Positions 4,888-12,690 of a stretch of DNA of 64,000 nucleotides are shown here, piece after piece; position 1 is the stretch's first letter, and each line of letters opens with the position of its first letter. The notes beneath the pieces were generated by a model. It saw nothing but the letters and a program-made list of their open reading frames with translations, searched no databases and was not told where the DNA came from. Location: assembly GCA_022448365.1 (NCBI GenBank), contig JAKVCS010000001.1:434001-498000 (forward strand). The letters run 5' to 3'. Made by a program: the position numbers and the translations under genes. Source of the DNA: Saccharospirillaceae bacterium (GTDB lineage Bacteria; Pseudomonadota; Gammaproteobacteria; Pseudomonadales; Oceanobacteraceae).

Positions 4888-5148
4888 GTGAACAAAGATC
4901 AAGCCTACCACCAGATTGCCTTAGCCTGTCTGAAATCCCTGCGCGAATCGAATGCTGCTAACAGTAAAGATCAGGCACAGGAACTGTATGACGCAATTGA
5001 TGAAGGCTTTCAAAACCAGTTTGCTCTGGTAATGGCGGAACTTGAAGATGCCAAACAGCGTCTCAGCCTGATCAACCAACTCGACCCGAAGCAGCATTCT
5101 CTGGCCGATGCACAGGCCATCATTAATGCCCAGGGAACGGCGCACTGA
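4888..5148 (+). CDS. Small hypothetical protein
   Basis: 86 aa, soluble, rich in Gln, Ala, Leu and Asp, predicted mostly helical; no recognised domain. I chose the GTG at 4888 because an AGGAG ribosome binding site ends seven bases before it. An in-frame ATG at 4864 has no such site and would sit at the edge of a GC-rich hairpin (arms AGCCGC at 4847-4852 and GCGGCT at 4858-4863). That hairpin could be part of the 5' leader. The stop codon is 40 bp before the M16 peptidase gene, so the two could share a transcript. Function unknown. Confidence 0.7.
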   Translation: MNKDQAYHQIALACLKSLRESNAANSKDQAQELYDAIDEGFQNQFALVMAELEDAKQRLSLINQLDPKQHSLADAQAIINAQGTAH

Positions 5149-5188
5149 TCGCCTAATAAATATCACAGCGTAATTCACAGGAGCTGAT

Positions 5189-8041
5189 ATGCTGTCACCC
5201 CGTTATTGGACCTTTCTACTCATCGTCTTTGCAGCGATCGTCTTTTCTATGTACAAAAAACTGAACCAGCCAGATCTAATCGTTAGTCCATCGGATGCCT
5301 ACGATTATCGTTATCTCGAGCTGGATAACGGCTTGCGCACATTATTAGTACAAACGCCGGATTCAGAAAAAGCCGCTGCAGCCGTGTCCGTCGAAGTCGG
5401 GAGCGGCGATGACCCTAAAGGCCGCGAGGGTCTGGCGCACTTCCTTGAGCATATGCTGTTTCTTGGTACCGAGCCATTTCCCGATGCCGGTGAGTATCAG
5501 GCCTATATTTCCCGTAATGGTGGCTCACACAACGCCTTTACAGCTTATGGTCAGACGACCTACTTCTTCGACATCAATAACCGAGACATGAAAGGTGCAC
5601 TGGATCGTTTTGCACCTTTCTTTATTTCTCCGACGTTTGATGAACAGTTTGTTGAACGGGAAAAAAATGCCGTTCATGCGGAGTATAAGTCAAAATACAA
5701 AGACGATTTCCGTCGCGTCTACTCTGCTGAAAAACAGGCAATGAATCCTGAGCATCCTCTGGCTTCTTTTGCCACCGGCAATCTGGATACCCTATCCGAT
5801 CGCGAAGGCAGTAAAATCCGTGATGAATTATTAAAGTTTTATGCAGAACACTATTCATCAGACCGAATGACGTTGGTTCTTGCCGGCAATTACTCACTTG
5901 ACCAGTTAGAGCAATGGGCTGTTTCCCATTTCTCCGATGTTCCAAAACGTGAGACTCAACCGGTGAAGTCCAAAGCACCGTTGTTCACTGAAGGCCAGTT
6001 ACCGCTGGATATGAATATCGAACCGGTAAAGGAAATCCGTCGCCTGCAATTCACTTTCCCGCTACCACCATCAAAACACCTCTATGAATTTAAACCGATT
6101 CAGGTCATCAGTAATTTGCTTGGTCATGAAGGGGAAGGCAGTCTGCTGGAGTTTCTGAAAGACAAAGGCTGGGCCGAAAGTTTAAGCGCTGGCCGCTCTT
6201 TTGCGACAGATAATGAAACTACGATGGTGGTGCAGATCAGTCTGACAAAAAAAGGCTTGTTGCACACAGAGCAAGTTACCCAAGCGTTGATGCACTATAT
6301 CGACTTGCTGAAAGACAAGCCGTTACCGGGTTACTTGATTGAAGAACAGGCTCAATTAAGCGAACTGGCCTTTCGGTTCCAGGAAAAAAGCCGTTTATCG
6401 GATTATGTAGTGCGCCTGAGCAGCAATTTGTTGGTTTACCCGGCCCACGACAGCATCTACGGTGATTACAAGTGGCAGACTATCAGTCAGCCAACATTAA
6501 AACCATTCCTTGATGCTCTGAATTCAGACAATATGTTGCGAACCCTGATTGCACCGAATGTTGCAACGGATATTCAGGACCCTTGGTACGAAACCAATAT
6601 TCGATTACGTCCTGGTCGTTACAGCCGCCAGGATACTGAGACAACCGGTCTTGATCAGATGCACTTACCGGATGCCAATCCGTTTGTGCCGGAAAACTTC
6701 GAGCTGATTAGTGCGGCGAATCAGACAATACCTCAAGCACTGATCGATGAAGCAAACCGCTCATTGTGGTACTACGCCGATACCGATTTTAAACAACCGA
6801 AAGCACATGTCAGAGTGTTGCTTGAACAATACGACATACAAAATTCGGCGCGTGAACGCGTTCTGGCACGTCTATACAGCCGCACCGTTAATGAAGCGCT
6901 GAATACCTATAGCTACCCAGCCTATCTGGCCGGTTTAAGTTACAACCTGAGTACTACCGGCCAGGGTCTGCTGCTGCATATTGGCGGTTATCAGGATAAG
7001 TTACCGGAATTATTGAGCCGCATTCTGACAGAAATGCAAACGATTGAACTGGATGAGGATGCGTTCGTTCGCTACAAAAATTCGCTGCAGCGCGCATTGG
7101 AGAATCAGTTAAAAGGCAAACCGTATCACCGCACACTGGAGGAATTGAAGCACTGGTTGTATGAGCCAAGTTTTAATCAGCAACAGCTGCTAGCTGAGCT
7201 TGCATCGGTTGAACGCCAGGACGTATTAACGTTTGCTGAAAATTTCCACAAAAAGCTGGCTCAGGAAATTTATATTCACGGGAACCTGAACGAACAGCAG
7301 GCACATGATATGGCGGCGATGGTGAATCAGTATTTCCCGGCTAACAACCAACAATTATCTCCGGCAGAACTGCTACAGGCGCCGATTGGTCTGTTCCAGC
7401 AACAACTGCAGCTCGATCATCAGGATAATGCCTTTACTCTGTATATTCAGGGGAGTGACAGCAGCGATCGCAGCCGCGCCAGCTTCAGTCTGTTGGGGCA
7501 AATTTTATCGGCGCCGTATTATCAGTATATGCGCACCGAACAACAGTTGGGCTACATCGTATTTGCGACTCCTTATCCACAACAAACGGTGCCCGCACTG
7601 GCTTTCATTGTTCAGTCTCCGGAAACGGCACCGCAGCAGTTATTGCAGCATAGTGAAACTTTTTTCAAACAATATGAAGAAAAGTTAGCAGCATTAACAC
7701 CGGATGAGTTTGCCAGCTTTAAGCAGGGATTAGTCAATCTGTTATTGGAAAAACCGAAAAATCTGGCAGAAAAAGCCAGTCGTTTCTGGCGCGAACTGAA
7801 TCAACACCGTTATCAATTCAATACCATGGAGTCGATTGCTAAAGAAGTTGAAACGCTGACGCTGGATGAGATAACTACGCTGTATAAAAAAGCGATCAGT
7901 GAAAAGCAGCATCCATGGCTGATGATGGTTCAGGGTGGCGAATTGCAGGATGTCGCGCAGTTGTCTGAGATCGAACGCAATGAGCTGGCACGTTTTACTC
8001 TGCCCACAGCGGTTAAAAAATCAGCAGCCGATAAAAATTAA
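5189..8041 (+). CDS. Membrane-anchored M16 (pitrilysin/insulinase) zinc metallopeptidase
   Basis: 950 aa, the length of protease III. An N-terminal hydrophobic segment (about residues 6-21) without a clear cleavage site suggests a membrane-tethered periplasmic enzyme. The inverted zinc motif HFLEH covers residues 84-88 (H84, H88, catalytic E87), and the third ligand E165 in HAEYKSKY is 81 residues after H84, the pitrilysin spacing. The four-lobe arrangement of M16A peptidases fits the length, including a late R-Y-type substrate-binding region (EQQLGYIVFA). The family degrades small peptides and unfolded fragments in a closed chamber. A RBS (AGGAG) precedes the ATG. Possibly co-transcribed with the preceding small gene. 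Confidence 0.93.
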   Translation: MLSPRYWTFLLIVFAAIVFSMYKKLNQPDLIVSPSDAYDYRYLELDNGLRTLLVQTPDSEKAAAAVSVEVGSGDDPKGREGLAHFLEHMLFLGTEPFPDAGEYQAYISRNGGSHNAFTAYGQTTYFFDINNRDMKGALDRFAPFFISPTFDEQFVEREKNAVHAEYKSKYKDDFRRVYSAEKQAMNPEHPLASFATGNLDTLSDREGSKIRDELLKFYAEHYSSDRMTLVLAGNYSLDQLEQWAVSHFSDVPKRETQPVKSKAPLFTEGQLPLDMNIEPVKEIRRLQFTFPLPPSKHLYEFKPIQVISNLLGHEGEGSLLEFLKDKGWAESLSAGRSFATDNETTMVVQISLTKKGLLHTEQVTQALMHYIDLLKDKPLPGYLIEEQAQLSELAFRFQEKSRLSDYVVRLSSNLLVYPAHDSIYGDYKWQTISQPTLKPFLDALNSDNMLRTLIAPNVATDIQDPWYETNIRLRPGRYSRQDTETTGLDQMHLPDANPFVPENFELISAANQTIPQALIDEANRSLWYYADTDFKQPKAHVRVLLEQYDIQNSARERVLARLYSRTVNEALNTYSYPAYLAGLSYNLSTTGQGLLLHIGGYQDKLPELLSRILTEMQTIELDEDAFVRYKNSLQRALENQLKGKPYHRTLEELKHWLYEPSFNQQQLLAELASVERQDVLTFAENFHKKLAQEIYIHGNLNEQQAHDMAAMVNQYFPANNQQLSPAELLQAPIGLFQQQLQLDHQDNAFTLYIQGSDSSDRSRASFSLLGQILSAPYYQYMRTEQQLGYIVFATPYPQQTVPALAFIVQSPETAPQQLLQHSETFFKQYEEKLAALTPDEFASFKQGLVNLLLEKPKNLAEKASRFWRELNQHRYQFNTMESIAKEVETLTLDEITTLYKKAISEKQHPWLMMVQGGELQDVAQLSEIERNELARFTLPTAVKKSAADKN

Positions 8042-8337: not shown

Positions 8338-9108
8338 ATGACACAAACCGCATTTATTACCGGTGCCGCTTCCGGTATTGGTAAAGCCACAGCAGAAGCT
8401 TTGTATCACCGTGGCTGGTCACTGGCATTGGCAGATATCAACCTGGTTGCTCTGCAGCAACAAACTGAGGATTGGGATCAACAACGGGTTTGTTGCTACG
8501 CATTGGATGTGACCAATATCGATCAATGCCAGCAAAGCGTCAATGAATTTGTTCAACAGCACGGCCAACAACTGAATCTGTTGCTTAATAGCGCCGGTAT
8601 TTTGCAAATAGATCGCTTCGAAGAAATCAGCAACCAGCGGCATCAGCAGATTATCAATATTAACGTAACGGGCGTGATTAACTGCTGCCAGGCCGCCTTT
8701 CCTTATCTCAAGCACACCGAAAATGCCGTGGTGATTAATATGAGCTCAGCTTCGGCAACCTATGGTGTTCCTATGCTGGCTTCTTATTCGGCATCCAAAT
8801 TTGCGGTCCGTGGCCTCACCGAAGGCTTGAGAATCGAATGGGAAGAGCACGGTATTAAAGTCTGTGATGTGATGCCACCGTTTGTGAATACGCATATGCT
8901 GCAATCGCAACAAAGCTCAGCGCCGGTATTGGAGAAACTGGGTGTACATATCGGTGCCAACGACGTCGTATCGGAAATTCTCAAGCAAATTGAACAACCA
9001 AAAACCCACCGTGCCGTTAGCCTGCAGTTCAAAGTTGCCTACTTCTTCAGCGAACTGCTACCAACGCGTATCACTGGCGGAATTATGCGATTATTGCATC
9101 GAGGCTGA
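8338..9108 (+). CDS. Short-chain dehydrogenase/reductase (SDR)
   Basis: 256 aa classical SDR. The cofactor loop is TGAASGIGKA near residue 8; the NAG-like motif reads NSAG, and the catalytic Ser-Tyr-Lys are visible (MSSASATYG, then YSASKFA). An Asp after the second strand (ADIN) suggests NAD(H) preference. The C-terminal third (about 190-256) has the hydrophobic tail common in SDRs acting on lipids or steroids. I chose the ATG at 8338 because AGGGA ends seven bases upstream and the Rossmann fold starts immediately; a longer reading to 8248 adds residues unlike the family. The substrate is not determinable. The gene stands alone and ends at a terminator. Confidence 0.9.
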   Translation: MTQTAFITGAASGIGKATAEALYHRGWSLALADINLVALQQQTEDWDQQRVCCYALDVTNIDQCQQSVNEFVQQHGQQLNLLLNSAGILQIDRFEEISNQRHQQIININVTGVINCCQAAFPYLKHTENAVVINMSSASATYGVPMLASYSASKFAVRGLTEGLRIEWEEHGIKVCDVMPPFVNTHMLQSQQSSAPVLEKLGVHIGANDVVSEILKQIEQPKTHRAVSLQFKVAYFFSELLPTRITGGIMRLLHRG

Positions 9109-9121
9109 CGATCACAGCAGC

Positions 9122-9154
9122 GCATAGGACTATCAATCCTATGCTCTTTTCTTT
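9122..9154 (+). terminator. Intrinsic terminator after the SDR gene
   Basis: Perfect eight-base arms GCATAGGA (9122-9129) and TCCTATGC (9137-9144) with a seven-base loop are followed by a T-rich tract (TCTTTTCTTT) on the plus strand. Confidence 0.75.
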
Positions 9155-9162
9155 ACCTGAAA

Positions 9163-9480
9163 TTATTCTTCCGGTGGCTGAGTGTTTGGCGGATTAATAT
9201 CCAGCAGGAAATGCCCGTAAACACATTTTCCACCGAGATCAATCACGATCACCATCGCCAGACCTTTGTATTGGCTATTGATCAGAATATGTTCATATTC
9301 ATCACCCATGCGATATACATGACTGACCTGCCCCTCGCGACAGTCTGCCACTCCGAAATCCTCAGAAGGAATGGCTTCGACATAGGCCCAGAAGTCCATA
9401 GGCGGTTCTCCACCTTCAACTCGCTTTGGCTCACTGCGGGTAGCATCAAATTCGGCTTTGCTTAATAAACGGGTTTGCAT
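9163..9480 (-). CDS. Hypothetical protein
   Basis: 105 aa, acidic, soluble, no signal peptide and no recognised domain. The central part (GDEYEHILINSQYKG, then VIVIDL) looks like a small beta-rich fold, and the C-terminus is Pro-rich. It converges with the SDR gene and diverges from the bufferin operon, sharing a 164-bp intergenic stretch with it. The codon pattern resembles neighbouring genes. I do not recognise the family. Confidence 0.65.
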   Translation of the reverse strand: MQTRLLSKAEFDATRSEPKRVEGGEPPMDFWAYVEAIPSEDFGVADCREGQVSHVYRMGDEYEHILINSQYKGLAMVIVIDLGGKCVYGHFLLDINPPNTQPPEE

Positions 9481-9574
9481 ACGACACCTGAAACATTATT
9501 TGCCGGGCATTTTATGGCAGTCACACAAGGATGCAATCAAATCTGAAGTTCTTTCGTCCCTTATTCGAAGCCGT

Positions 9575-9592
9575 ACTCACCCTGGTGTGAGT
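9575..9592. promoter_or_regulatory. Inverted repeat in the bufferin operon leader
   Basis: Arms ACTCAC (9575-9580) and GTGAGT (9587-9592) around a six-base centre lie about 52 bp before the bufA start. The repeat could be an operator or a 5'-leader hairpin. I could not assign a convincing ECF -35/-10 pair in 9481-9644; a CGAA at about 9565 is a weak -10 candidate only. Confidence 0.35.
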
Positions 9593-9644
9593 GATGGAAA
9601 CCGCGATCGCATTCAGCGCTCGCATTAATGATGAGGAACAGACA

Positions 9645-9920
9645 ATGAATAACAAACGATTACTATCAGCCACTCTGGCTGGTCTGGCGTCTCTGGCTGC
9701 AATTCCGGCACAAGCAGTGCCCGATACTCCCAAAGCCTGGGAAAAGTGTGCGGGGATTGCAAAGGCAGGTATGAATGACTGTGGCGCACTCGATGGCTCA
9801 CATGGCTGCGCAGGTCAGGCAAAAATGGACAATATGGACACTGAATGGGTCTACGTTCCTGAAGGTACCTGCGAAAAAATCACCGGGGGTCGTGTTGCTA
9901 AAGTAAAACCGGCAAAGTAA
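9645..9920 (+). CDS. bufA: Bufferin-type DUF2282 precursor peptide
   Basis: 91 aa secreted metallophore precursor. A signal peptide spans residues 1-24 (K4-R5, hydrophobic core, AQA cleavage motif). The mature part carries the DUF2282/BufA1 cysteine pattern: C35 (EKCAG), C46 (DCGAL), C55 (GCAGQ), C76 (TCEKI), followed by a Lys-rich tail. Members of this family are modified by DUF692 enzymes that turn core cysteines into thiooxazole groups, and they bind excess copper in the periplasm (established for Caulobacter bufferin). The ATG at 9645 is preceded by GAGGA; longer in-frame readings lack a ribosome binding site. First gene of a five-gene operon; the next start is 7 bp after its stop. Copper binding here is inferred from family. 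Confidence 0.9.
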
Positions 9921-9927
9921 GACAAGG

Positions 9928-10899
9928 ATGGTAAGCGTCAACAACACCCGGATAACCGCTGCAGAGGGCGTAGGCTTAGGCCTGCGTATTCCTCATTTAA
10001 GTTATATATTGCAACACCGCCCTGCCATTAACTGGTTTGAAGTGCCGGTCTGCAATTTTCTGAGAGCACCGTTCAATCGTGATTTATTGCATCAGATCAG
10101 CGCTCATTATCCACTCAGTTTTCATGGTGTGAGTCTGAATCTCGGTGGCAGTGACCAACTGAACCAGGAATATTTATCCGCGCTGAAACGGGCCGTTGAT
10201 GAATTTCAACCGGCACTGGTTTCTGAACACGCTTGCTTTACCGCGCATCAAGGACAGCATTTTCATGATTTGCTACCGGTTCCCTACACCCAACAAGGCG
10301 TAAAACACTTTGTGGACCGCCTTGATCAGGTACAAAATGTTCTCGGCCGGAAAATTCTGATTGAGAATGTCTCACGCTATTGTGCTTACCCTGAAAGCGA
10401 GATGAGTGAGGCCGAGTTTCTCGCAGCCATTTGCCACCACAGTGGCTGTGGACTGGTGCTTGATCTCAACAATATCTATGTCAATCAAATGAACTTTCCC
10501 AAAGACACTCACTTATCGCTGGAACATTTCATCCGGCATATTCCCTTAGACAGCATCGGTGAACTGCACCTGGCCGGTCATAGCCGCCAAGGGGAATATC
10601 TGGTGGATACTCACGGCAGCGAAATTTGTGATCCGGTCTGGGATCTCTATAGCGACTTTCTCAAATACTGGCGCAGCAACAGCACCAAACAGCATCGAAC
10701 CAAAACCGCTCCGCCCTGTCTGATTGAATGGGACAATAACTTACCGACGTTTTCGGTACTGCAACAACAAGGTGAAAAAGCGCAATTGCTGATGGAAAGT
10801 ACTTTGAACAGAAGCACCCCGGTTGAAAACAACAGGTTTAGAAACGACCGGATCAAAGACAACCACCAAGACAATGCCGCCAGGGAGCTTTTATTGTGA
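9928..10899 (+). CDS. bufB: DUF692 multinuclear iron-dependent oxidase (MbnB/BufB-like)
   Basis: 323 aa TIM-barrel enzyme expected to modify cysteines of the preceding peptide. The metal-site motifs of the DUF692/MNIO family appear in order: SEHACF near residue 100, ENVSRY near 150, DLNNIYVN near 177, HLAGHS near 213, DTHGSE near 227 and EWDNNLP near 267, supplying the His, Asp, Glu and Asn ligands of the iron cluster. The last 45 residues are a polar extension beyond the usual family end. The ATG almost touches an AAGG, an unusually short spacing, which suggests coupling to bufA translation. It overlaps bufC by 4 bp (GTGA). Confidence 0.92.
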   Translation: MVSVNNTRITAAEGVGLGLRIPHLSYILQHRPAINWFEVPVCNFLRAPFNRDLLHQISAHYPLSFHGVSLNLGGSDQLNQEYLSALKRAVDEFQPALVSEHACFTAHQGQHFHDLLPVPYTQQGVKHFVDRLDQVQNVLGRKILIENVSRYCAYPESEMSEAEFLAAICHHSGCGLVLDLNNIYVNQMNFPKDTHLSLEHFIRHIPLDSIGELHLAGHSRQGEYLVDTHGSEICDPVWDLYSDFLKYWRSNSTKQHRTKTAPPCLIEWDNNLPTFSVLQQQGEKAQLLMESTLNRSTPVENNRFRNDRIKDNHQDNAARELLL

Positions 10900-11432
10900 G
10901 CGTCGCTTACCAACAGAGCCTGGATCAATTTTGTCAGCAGACGTTGGCGCAGCATCCGGTGTATGCCAATAATCAACGGGCAAGCCATTATCAGGCGCTG
11001 GCAAATAATCTGCCACTGACTCACCACCTGTGTGGTGATGACGACTTTTATGCTCTGGCCGAATGTTTTCGACAGCATAACGACCAGCATCACTGGGATA
11101 TTAATACCCACGGTGAACAGTTCCCGTTATTGCTCGACCATCAGCAATACGGTGTCAAAGCCGATAGCAAAGACTGGTCATTACTCAGCCAGGTGGCAAC
11201 GTTCGAATATCAGCTGATTGCTCTGTATTACCAGCAAAAAACCGCTTGTATGCAACAATCTCTGCCTCACGCCGAGCAGTTATTGCCCGCATTGCAACAT
11301 TTTCATCCTTACCTCGATATCAGCGCAGCCGGCCAGCGGAACACGTGTTTTGATTTGATTTACCACCTCACCGATGATCATTTCAGTATCCGGGTCAGGG
11401 ACTCAGTAATGGCTGACTGTTCACATGACTGA
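10896..11432 (+). CDS. bufC: DUF2063-type MNIO partner protein (BufC-like), short
   Basis: 178 aa. The N-terminal two-thirds read as the DUF2063 helical domain: an opening SLDQFCQQTL helix, YQALANNLP, DDFYALAECF and the TFEYQL segment, which replaces the family's LEW stretch. In bufferin and related pathways this protein binds the precursor and presents it to the DUF692 enzyme. Typical BufC proteins are around 250 aa, so the second domain is reduced here to about 60 residues ending in ADCSHD. GTG start overlaps the bufB stop (GTGA), and its end overlaps the sigma factor gene by 8 bp. The assignment rests on order and pattern rather than a strong motif. Confidence 0.75.
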   Translation: MSVAYQQSLDQFCQQTLAQHPVYANNQRASHYQALANNLPLTHHLCGDDDFYALAECFRQHNDQHHWDINTHGEQFPLLLDHQQYGVKADSKDWSLLSQVATFEYQLIALYYQQKTACMQQSLPHAEQLLPALQHFHPYLDISAAGQRNTCFDLIYHLTDDHFSIRVRDSVMADCSHD

Positions 11433-11964
11433 ACATCATCACAACCGACTGCTACCAGAAGAGCTGCAACAGCTATTTCAATACGCAATGGTATTATGCC
11501 AACAGACGGATGATGCCCAGGACCTGCTTCAATCAGCGGTGGAACGTTATCTGTTAGCAATACGTCGTGGACATTCCATAACTAATAAAATGGCTTATCT
11601 TCGCAGCACTATCCGTAATCGATTTATTGATTCATATCGACATCAGCAGCGGTGGCCCAACGAATCCTTTGAAGAACAGCAGGACTACGATATTTCACCG
11701 GTCGATATCGAGCAGCTTCATATCGAGCAACAAATTCTTCAGCAAGTATGGCAAACACTGGCGCCTAAGGATCGGGATATTCTGTACCACTGGGCTGTCC
11801 TGGGTCATACCACAGACGAGGCCTGCGAAATTCTGAATATGCCCCGTGGTAGCTTCCTGTCGAGAATTCATCGCTTGCGTAAACGCTGCGAGCAACTGCA
11901 GCATGCAATGAATAAACCGACCAGTGGCAATTACCAACACACCTGTGGAGGACATGGCGAATGA
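11425..11964 (+). CDS. ECF-type RNA polymerase sigma factor
   Basis: 179 aa. Region sigma-2 runs over about residues 8-70 with the DAQDLLQSAVERYL helix (the D-A-x-D-L-x-Q pattern of ECF factors) and an RSTIRNRFIDSYR segment. Region sigma-4 (about 105-160) has LAPKDRDILYHWAV, then the helix-turn-helix TDEACEILNMPRGSFLSRIHRLRK. Sigma-1 and sigma-3 are absent, which is the ECF architecture. It is embedded in the bufferin operon (8-bp overlap with bufC, 4-bp overlap with the next gene), so it most likely directs transcription of its own operon in response to metal or thiol stress. A Cys and His-containing tail (HTCGGHG) follows the last helix. Confidence 0.92.
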   Translation: MTEHHHNRLLPEELQQLFQYAMVLCQQTDDAQDLLQSAVERYLLAIRRGHSITNKMAYLRSTIRNRFIDSYRHQQRWPNESFEEQQDYDISPVDIEQLHIEQQILQQVWQTLAPKDRDILYHWAVLGHTTDEACEILNMPRGSFLSRIHRLRKRCEQLQHAMNKPTSGNYQHTCGGHGE

Positions 11965-12653
11965 AACCGATACAACCCCCACCGGGTGATAAACCTTTTC
12001 GCGATACGGTTCGCCAGATTTGTCTGCAGCCTGAATTAGAGCAACAAAAATTACAGGAGTTATTGCAACTGCAAGACGAATTATTAGATAAGACACCTAA
12101 CAATAATTATAACCGGCAAAGTCTCTCGACTAACGCAGCTATCACTGAAAAGAAAGCGGCCAGATGGATTAATTGGATGGCATCACCTGTGAGTGGTTGG
12201 GTAGCCTCGGTGGTCATCGCCATTGGGTTGGTAATGTTCATGTTACAGCCTGATAACTACAGCGAGGAAATTGCCTATGAAGTGGTTAAAAATCATCTGA
12301 AGCTCAAACCACTGGATATACAAACCAATGCTATGGCGGATATTCAGGGCTATTTTTCTCAATTGGATTTCTCTCCTGCCCGATCCAGCTTGTTGGAAAC
12401 CACATTAACATTGACTGAAAGGTATCTGCTTGGTGGTCGCTACTGTTCGATCAAAGGCGTAACAGCAGCTCAATTGCGTTACCGCAAACATGATATTCAG
12501 ACGCTCTATCAGGTTCCTTACGACAAGGCGCTGCACGGAAATATTGCCGATATTGCACACCAACCAGAGCCGGAGACACTGCATCTTAAAGGCTTAAACA
12601 TTCAGCTCTGGCAGGAACATGGGTTATTAATGGTACTGGTGAGCAAACCATAA
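11961..12653 (+). CDS. Probable single-pass anti-sigma factor
   Basis: 230 aa. Residues 1-70 form a polar helical cytoplasmic part rich in Gln and Leu. One transmembrane segment (about 80-96, ASVVIAIGLVMFML) follows, then a 130-residue periplasmic domain with alternating strands and a Cys near residue 160 (RYCSIKG). The layout and the ATGA overlap with the sigma gene mark it as the cognate anti-sigma factor. The zinc anti-sigma motif HxxxCxxC is absent, and it is not the six-pass NrsF type used in Caulobacter. The periplasmic part is a candidate sensor of copper or of the bufferin itself; this is inference. Last gene of the operon. Confidence 0.7.
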   Translation: MKPIQPPPGDKPFRDTVRQICLQPELEQQKLQELLQLQDELLDKTPNNNYNRQSLSTNAAITEKKAARWINWMASPVSGWVASVVIAIGLVMFMLQPDNYSEEIAYEVVKNHLKLKPLDIQTNAMADIQGYFSQLDFSPARSSLLETTLTLTERYLLGGRYCSIKGVTAAQLRYRKHDIQTLYQVPYDKALHGNIADIAHQPEPETLHLKGLNIQLWQEHGLLMVLVSKP

Positions 12654-12661
12654 CAAGCCCA

Positions 12662-12690
12662 CAAAAAAAACGGCCATCAGGCCGTTTTTA
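12662..12690. terminator. Bidirectional terminator after the bufferin operon
   Basis: CGGCC and GGCCG arms with loop ATCA (12671-12684), flanked by A-tract on the left and T-tract on the right, extend the stem to AAAACGGCC. Both strands read hairpin plus U-run, so it serves the plus-strand bufferin operon and the convergent TIGR03545 gene. Confidence 0.9.

Follow-up and report, generated by a model that had tools for sequence, protein, structure and literature searches.

A widespread bufferin-type operon very probably controlled by its own ECF sigma factor, with a candidate single-pass anti-sigma factor

What switches on a bufferin operon that carries its own sigma factor gene? Few cases are known in which the regulation of bufferin production is understood; we address the question for a five-gene operon in a stretch of 64,000 nucleotides from a Saccharospirillaceae bacterium (the window; positions 434,001 to 498,000 of contig JAKVCS010000001.1, assembly GCA_022448365.1). 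By its sequence the operon looks as if built for a copper-trapping peptide, as a bufferin-type (captophorin) cluster with its own extracytoplasmic function (ECF) switch. From the comparison of related loci we infer that the sigma factor reads a conserved motif ahead of the first gene and that the operon is very probably switched on in this way from within. The operon and the elements at its two ends are as follows.

9533-9558, + strand: putative ECF promoter GCAATCA-N15-CGTC (GCAATCA at 9533-9539, CGTC at 9555-9558), about 87 bp upstream of the first gene
9645-9920, + strand: bufA-like DUF2282 (Buf1) precursor, 91 amino acids, PF10048 84 bits
9928-10899, + strand: bufB-like MNIO (DUF692) enzyme, 323 amino acids, PF05114 293.6 bits
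10896-11432, + strand: bufC-like short DUF2063 partner, 178 amino acids, PF09836 35.9 bits
11425-11964, + strand: ECF sigma factor, matching Sigma70_r2, r4_2 and TIGR02937
11961-12653, + strand: putative anti-sigma factor, 230 amino acids, with two predicted N-terminal helices, one membrane span and a periplasmic domain at about residues 100-230
12668-12690, + strand: hairpin with a T-run at the convergent gene boundary, likely the transcript end, read from the sequence

The five open reading frames (ORFs) are co-directional on the + strand and nearly touch, with a gap of 7 bp followed by overlaps of 4, 8 and 4 bp. An earlier note, made from the sequence alone, had claimed five overlapping or near-touching genes, and all of the ORFs are indeed in place, with the Pfam support detailed below. 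As that note also held, the operon has no DoxX gene. The hairpin is missing from the terminator-type scan, whose rule requires a T-run after the stem.

Upstream of the first gene stands TGCAATCAAATCTGAAGTTCTTTCGTC (9532-9558), which contains an exact match to GCAATCA-N15-CGTC. When one mismatch is allowed, the 64-kb window holds 2 matches against 1.63 expected; the single site is therefore not significant alone, and the weight rests on how well the motif is kept ahead of this operon in other genomes. From 9100 to 9645 the scan lists no sigma-70-like site on the + strand.

To find such operons we scanned the named genome collection with the membrane protein as sole query, which gave 127 relatives, and kept the best 80 loci. 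The order DUF2282-MNIO-DUF2063-ECF is contiguous upstream of the membrane protein in 55 of these 80. At least one bufferin gene lies upstream in 62/80 loci, a sum over classes that omits L124, whose MNIO label is spurious. The other 25 loci comprise 15 with ECF alone, 2 with DUF2282 and ECF, 2 with DUF2282, MNIO and ECF, four further partial sets found once each (L124 among them) and 2 at a contig edge with no upstream label. Of 77 pairs made up of an ECF sigma factor ORF and a membrane-protein ORF (hereafter the sigma pair), 68 abut or overlap, with the farthest-upstream starts assumed, which favours overlap. The arrangement goes beyond chance: a genome of the same genus (G002, locus L008) has the identical five-gene order, and so does one from a different genus within the family (G011, L009).

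The motif, in the form GCAATCA-N15-CGT(C/T), is conserved along with this arrangement. A site of this pattern with a 15-base spacer lies ahead of the operons of L008 and L009, as it does ahead of the ECF gene of L010. Among the upstream stretches of the best loci, 63 of the 77 that could be scored match GCAATCA-N(14-16)-CGTC with no more than one mismatch, 26 of them exactly, compared with 3/385 shuffled sequences, 3/74 adjacent stretches and 0/77 reversed sequences. Sorted by the first gene of the unit, it is found in 59/61 cases where DUF2282 comes first, 4/15 where ECF does and 0/1 where MNIO does; in L134 and L141 a motif lies farther upstream, before an unlabelled gene. As a control for specificity we took 40 DUF2282 loci from 39 of the 56 genomes of the order that have DUF2282 but no match to the membrane protein. 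Here the motif precedes only 1 of the 38 scorable operons (nominal Fisher p 2e-17 versus 63/77), the two remaining loci, L262 and L265, having given no DUF2282 label. By these sequence counts it is the sigma pair, rather than the bufferin genes, that the motif goes with (1/38 vs 59/61).

The link also holds in trans. In three genomes (G007, G049 and G091) the sigma pair stands apart from a DUF2282-MNIO-DUF2063 operon and the motif precedes both, the distance between the two not being fixed in G007, whose assembly consists of 690 contigs. A strict form of the motif, TGCAATCAA-N14-CGTY, has 11 matches in seven genomes (3 for the reversed control), 9 of which precede a bufferin operon, a sigma pair, or a DoxX gene followed by a sigma pair, and 2 of which lie in coding ORFs. 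The proposal that the sigma factor acts at the promoter of its own operon rests chiefly on motif conservation and the link to the sigma pair, in trans included. The -10 block is divided among 59 aligned sites (upstream regions of L066-L145) into 28 with CGTC and 31 with CGTT, and in Shewanella loci the best site has CGTT in 22 of 23 cases; the split may follow changes in sigma region 2.

We also considered a wider regulon in the genome of the window (G000). The looser GCAATCA-N15-CGTC has 5 matches there (reversed control 2), and the four outside the window (L016, L020, L023, L025) lie within or over ORFs and were thus taken as chance. A wider regulon was accordingly rejected, in a genome-wide search that did not extend to sites with more mismatches.

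Taken together, the comparative promoter evidence strongly supports an autoregulated sigma circuit, and we judge it quite probable that the bufferin operon as a whole is such an ECF circuit with a membrane anti-sigma factor, working as follows. The ECF sigma factor would read TGCAATCAAA-N13-CGTC before the first gene and transcribe the precursor, the modifying enzymes, itself and the anti-sigma factor as one unit. The N-terminal helices of the single-pass inner-membrane protein would hold the sigma factor at the membrane until the periplasmic domain around Cys162 receives an envelope signal and frees it. RNA polymerase with the freed sigma factor would then transcribe the whole operon in a positive loop, which would end once new anti-sigma factor, made last, accumulates. 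The earlier note had proposed a self-amplifying metal-stress circuit: its self-amplifying part is well supported by the promoter comparison, an outcome that does not extend to the metal-stress part.

Several observations weigh against this reading or parts of it. Locus L261 (about 5091-5400) has an exact motif and a window-like bufferin operon in a genome with no membrane-protein match, and no sigma gene adjoins that operon. Eleven of the 15 ECF-first loci and the single MNIO-first locus lack the motif at up to one mismatch. Of the three DUF2282 loci in G091, two show no motif within their 3-kb loci. The strict form, which has one match in the 3.92-Mb genome of the window, at this operon (reversed-pattern control also 1), misses the true site of G002, where C replaces the first T, so that this count of one is not exhaustive. 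Because 23 of the 80 titles are Shewanella, the named loci do not count as independent, and the p-values given here overstate the case. In the membrane protein, the invariance of the sequence RYCSI in alignment A4 is partly circular because the RYCSI peptide served as scan query. Finally, the sigma pair also adjoins operons without bufferin genes, and the signal therefore need not be copper.

The first four proteins fit their assignments. The precursor scores well above the Pfam cut-off for DUF2282 (84 vs 22.4 bits) and has a signal sequence read by eye. The four Cys residues that had been pointed out earlier are C35, C46, C55 and C76, and all are invariant in 62/62 aligned precursors, the window included. 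Its gene is the sole DUF2282 gene of its genome. The MNIO enzyme matches Pfam MbnB_TglH_ChrH (PF05114; 293.6 bits, cut-off 25), its best NCBIfam family is MNIO_BufB at 304.9 bits, just below the cut-off of 310, and it keeps 18/18 of the H/D/E/N/Q/R/C positions that are at least 95% conserved in 59 aligned MNIOs. The DUF2063 partner reaches 35.9 bits (cut-off 27.2); its model shows a helical domain and, at the expected place of the recognition domain, only a low-confidence C-terminal beta hairpin. At 178 amino acids it is short, 48 of the 58 labelled relatives longer than 120 amino acids measuring 242-307. The sigma factor consists of sigma-70 regions 2 and 4 only (Sigma70_r2 30.9 bits, cut-off 24; r4_2 31.7 bits, cut-off 25.7; NCBIfam TIGR02937 59 bits, cut-off 42.9). 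In L118 (3541-5298) and L130 (948-2495) the MNIO ORFs are 585 and 515 amino acids long with no separate DUF2063 gene before ECF, which suggests MNIO-DUF2063 fusions.

The fifth protein matches no Pfam family at E<=10 and no NCBIfam anti-sigma family. It has one hydrophobic segment (residues 72-99), a single one likewise being present in 61 of 62 aligned members, and in the AlphaFold2 (AF2) model (mean predicted local distance difference test score, pLDDT, 85.9; much lower for residues 41-80) two helices at the N-terminus are followed by one in the membrane and by a compact domain in the periplasm. Among the conserved positions of this domain are Glu107, Asn111, His112, Arg160, Tyr161, Cys162, Ser163, Trp217 and Glu219; Cys162 and His112 are invariant in 19/19 members of alignment A3, which was profile-found and is less biased. 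The distant relatives L224 and L225 have a Cys at the aligned place among other neighbouring residues. A relative in L213 (1516-2031, - strand) starts at the membrane helix, without the N-terminal cytoplasmic region, has Ala for the conserved Cys and adjoins no ECF label.

Which kind of anti-sigma factor could this be? NrsF was rejected, as there is no PF06532 match, one span instead of six, and no NrsF match in the genome of the window, in keeping with the earlier statement that the anti-sigma factor is of another type. Zinc-binding anti-sigma (ZAS) factors are defined by a cytoplasmic zinc-binding His/Cys motif. The ZAS type (MseR, HrsE, RsrA) was rejected as well: the window protein lacks such a motif and has only Cys21 besides Cys162, and 38/62 members have no Cys other than the conserved one. 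DUF3379 (PF11859) weakly matches 13 of the 62 members (best E 2.6e-7), the window protein itself giving no match at E<=10. In the fold search the six best matches are all the RseB/MucB C-terminal domain (Z 6.1-6.3 over 78-86 residues, 4-10% identity), a likeness that is only suggestive because Z is below 8, the identity is low and the next, unrelated row stands at 5.3. Foldseek gave no match at E<=0.001, and the search for relatives of solved structure by sequence gave four matches only, with unrelated names (E 0.036-1.1). The periplasmic domain thus appears distantly like DUF3379 and, weakly and by the fold of its model, like the RseB/MucB C-terminal domain. Given its position, topology, overlap with the sigma gene and the distant DUF3379 relation, the membrane protein is probably an anti-sigma factor that holds the ECF sigma factor back.

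Two alternatives concern the circuit itself. This could be an ordinary bufferin operon served by a housekeeping promoter or another regulator, with the ECF sigma factor and the membrane protein merely travelling along and acting elsewhere. DUF2282 loci from genomes without the membrane protein show that a bufferin operon needs no cognate sigma factor, since 26 of the 40 fetched have a DoxX label without an ECF label and 37 of the 38 scored lack the motif; control by RpoQ in Cupriavidus is likewise merely assumed (PMC10304878). This explanation is nevertheless very unlikely in view of the motif following the sigma pair, its retention at both places when pair and bufferin operon are unlinked, the lack of a listed sigma-70-like site on the + strand before the operon, and the lack of a second strict match in the own genome. 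Alternatively, the fifth protein might act positively on the sigma factor's output, or be a membrane protein with no part in the control, as its failure to match any anti-sigma family of Pfam or NCBIfam would allow. We regard this as unlikely: its gene directly follows the ECF gene in 77 pairs, mostly with overlap, the single hydrophobic segment is nearly universal, part of the family shows the distant DUF3379 match, and in the one case without an adjoining ECF label (L213) the N-terminal region and the Cys are lost.

The nature of the signal carries less weight in our proposal of an autoregulated circuit: it may be copper in the periplasm, or else a change of thiol or redox state at Cys162 in which His112 and Glu107 perhaps take part. 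The obvious choice is copper, since bufferins reportedly improve growth during copper stress (PMC12452194). That the periplasmic domain is itself a direct sensor of Cu(I) or thiol state, the sigma factor being set free by nothing more than metal binding or oxidation at Cys162 together with His112 and Glu107, is a tentative idea that we rather doubt; if true, a membrane anti-sigma factor would itself read periplasmic copper, in what is possibly a one-operon regulon making a periplasmic copper buffer. It is quite possible, if still short of an even chance, that the same circuit answers envelope thiol or oxidative stress and not copper, the bufferin being one of several outputs. Relatives of the pair adjoin a DoxX gene in L065 and L145 (PF07681 above cut-off), lie near a thioredoxin-domain gene that the motif precedes in L134, and in L142 and L143 adjoin small proteins whose start is signal-like; a single conserved Cys could act as a redox switch, and Neisseria sigmaE (PMC2893595) and Haemophilus RpoE2 (PMC7907618) control msr genes. 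On the other hand, the cargo is mostly bufferin genes (62/80 loci) and the reported benefit is in copper stress. The two signals are hard to separate because copper also perturbs thiols. That the bufferin itself is the signal becomes less likely, as other cargo adjoins relatives that share this Cys.

The side branch of L142 and L143, together with the class-level loci L215-L219, L221 and L222, has the same ECF/anti-sigma pair behind a small ORF of 120-149 amino acids; in L142 and L143 this ORF has a signal-like start and no Pfam match above cut-off, and no bufferin genes are labelled nearby. Relatives of the membrane protein occur in 4 of 44 genomes of the family, 18 of 293 of the order (one a 73-amino-acid fragment) and 30 of 369 of the class, the last with the wider profile A4, whose last rows are weak. 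The titles of the 80 loci are mostly Gammaproteobacteria, with metagenome-assembled genomes labelled Betaproteobacteria, Hyphomicrobiales, Methyloligella, Bacteriovorax and Oligoflexales, and several of these records duplicate genomes of the family and order set (e.g. L066, L050). Within the order, DUF2282 is present in 16/18 genomes with the membrane protein versus 56/275 without (nominal Fisher p 4e-9), assuming that the two scans cover the same 293 genomes; NrsF matches occur in 11 of the 293, 8 of them above cut-off.

The flanks of the operon, a short-chain dehydrogenase gene upstream and a convergent downstream gene with a sub-cut-off DUF748 match, are taken as outside it. A divergent ORF of 105 amino acids (9163-9480, - strand), likewise placed outside, belongs to no known Pfam family and has a counterpart at the same place in the same-genus locus L008. 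Elsewhere in the genome, on contig C3 at about 304747-308532 (L001, L011), lies the one further MNIO operon, which comprises genes for an EGKCG-repeat precursor, an MNIO, a DUF2063 protein and a DoxX-like protein; no sigma gene adjoins it and the strict motif has no match there.

How does the operon compare with known systems? The Caulobacter operon CC3254-CC3257 is said to consist of DUF2282, DUF692, DUF2063 and DoxX genes. It is controlled, as a bufferin-type operon, by an ECF/anti-sigma pair (sigmaF/NrsF) via a shared promoter, GTAACC-N16-CGAA; unlike the window pair, sigF-nrsF is a separate operon described as not strongly autoregulated, and NrsF crosses the membrane six times and contains two conserved Cys (PMC3511200). 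The earlier note had spoken of a Caulobacter gig operon, which is a misnomer: gig is the Cupriavidus and Legionella name, and the Caulobacter operon is CC3254-CC3257, with sigF-nrsF apart (PMC3511200). In Cupriavidus metallidurans, gigPABT, induced by Cu and Au, is a bufferin-type operon beside an ECF gene and a predicted membrane-bound anti-sigma gene (rpoQ-rsqA), the two being divergent transcription units, unlike the window operon (PMC10304878).

A further bufferin operon, DUF2282-MNIO-DUF2063-DoxX-ECF-DUF3379, occurs in L249 (1-3687). Its full DUF3379 protein (91 bits, cut-off 33.2) occupies the place of the window protein after ECF, is likely a further anti-sigma type in bufferin operons, and shows by eye a Cys-rich motif at its N-terminus that is absent from the window protein. 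The single-pass window protein also differs from RseB and MucB, which are soluble proteins distinct from their partners RseA and MucA. A survey of MNIOs notes genes for sigma factors and for NrsF within bufferin clusters of the DUF2282 type, and the word anti-sigma occurs once in the main text, for NrsF (PMC12452194); captophorin work mentions transcriptional regulators in a supplementary table (PMC12668002, PMC13097082). Our literature search, with supplements and subscription papers outside it, found this kind of anti-sigma factor not described for bufferin operons, no paper on DUF3379 and none linking a GCAATC-type motif to such operons. A published ECF reclassification could already list this ECF/anti-sigma group.

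The closest precedent is the sigmaE operon of Neisseria, NMB2140-NMB2145, likewise a single polycistronic autoregulated operon with the gene of the anti-sigma factor MseR directly after ECF, a small regulon and a -10 motif that begins, like that of the window, with CGTC (PMC2893595). Its gonococcal counterpart, a gonophorin-type cluster, has DUF692 and DUF2063 genes as here (PMC2954202), whereas the precursor is of the EGKCG type and not DUF2282 (PMC12668002). The Neisseria operon further differs in its DoxX gene and ZAS-type MseR, both absent from the window operon, and sigmaE uses a -35 element GTMAGBWTT with a spacer of 12-13 nt and also controls msrA/msrB (PMC2893595). The difference from described systems claimed earlier therefore stands for the type of anti-sigma factor but not for the control pair in the same transcript, which Neisseria already has (PMC2893595). 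What the operon adds is a widespread second way of controlling DUF2282 operons, for which a motif is defined and a sensor residue can be proposed, so that what bufferin operons sense becomes directly testable; the short motif can help to locate bufferin genes controlled in this way, and a family poorly covered by Pfam gains a probable function. With a sigma and an anti-sigma factor within one autoregulated MNIO operon already known from Neisseria, the system is a widespread regulatory variant of the MNIO operon, not a new kind.

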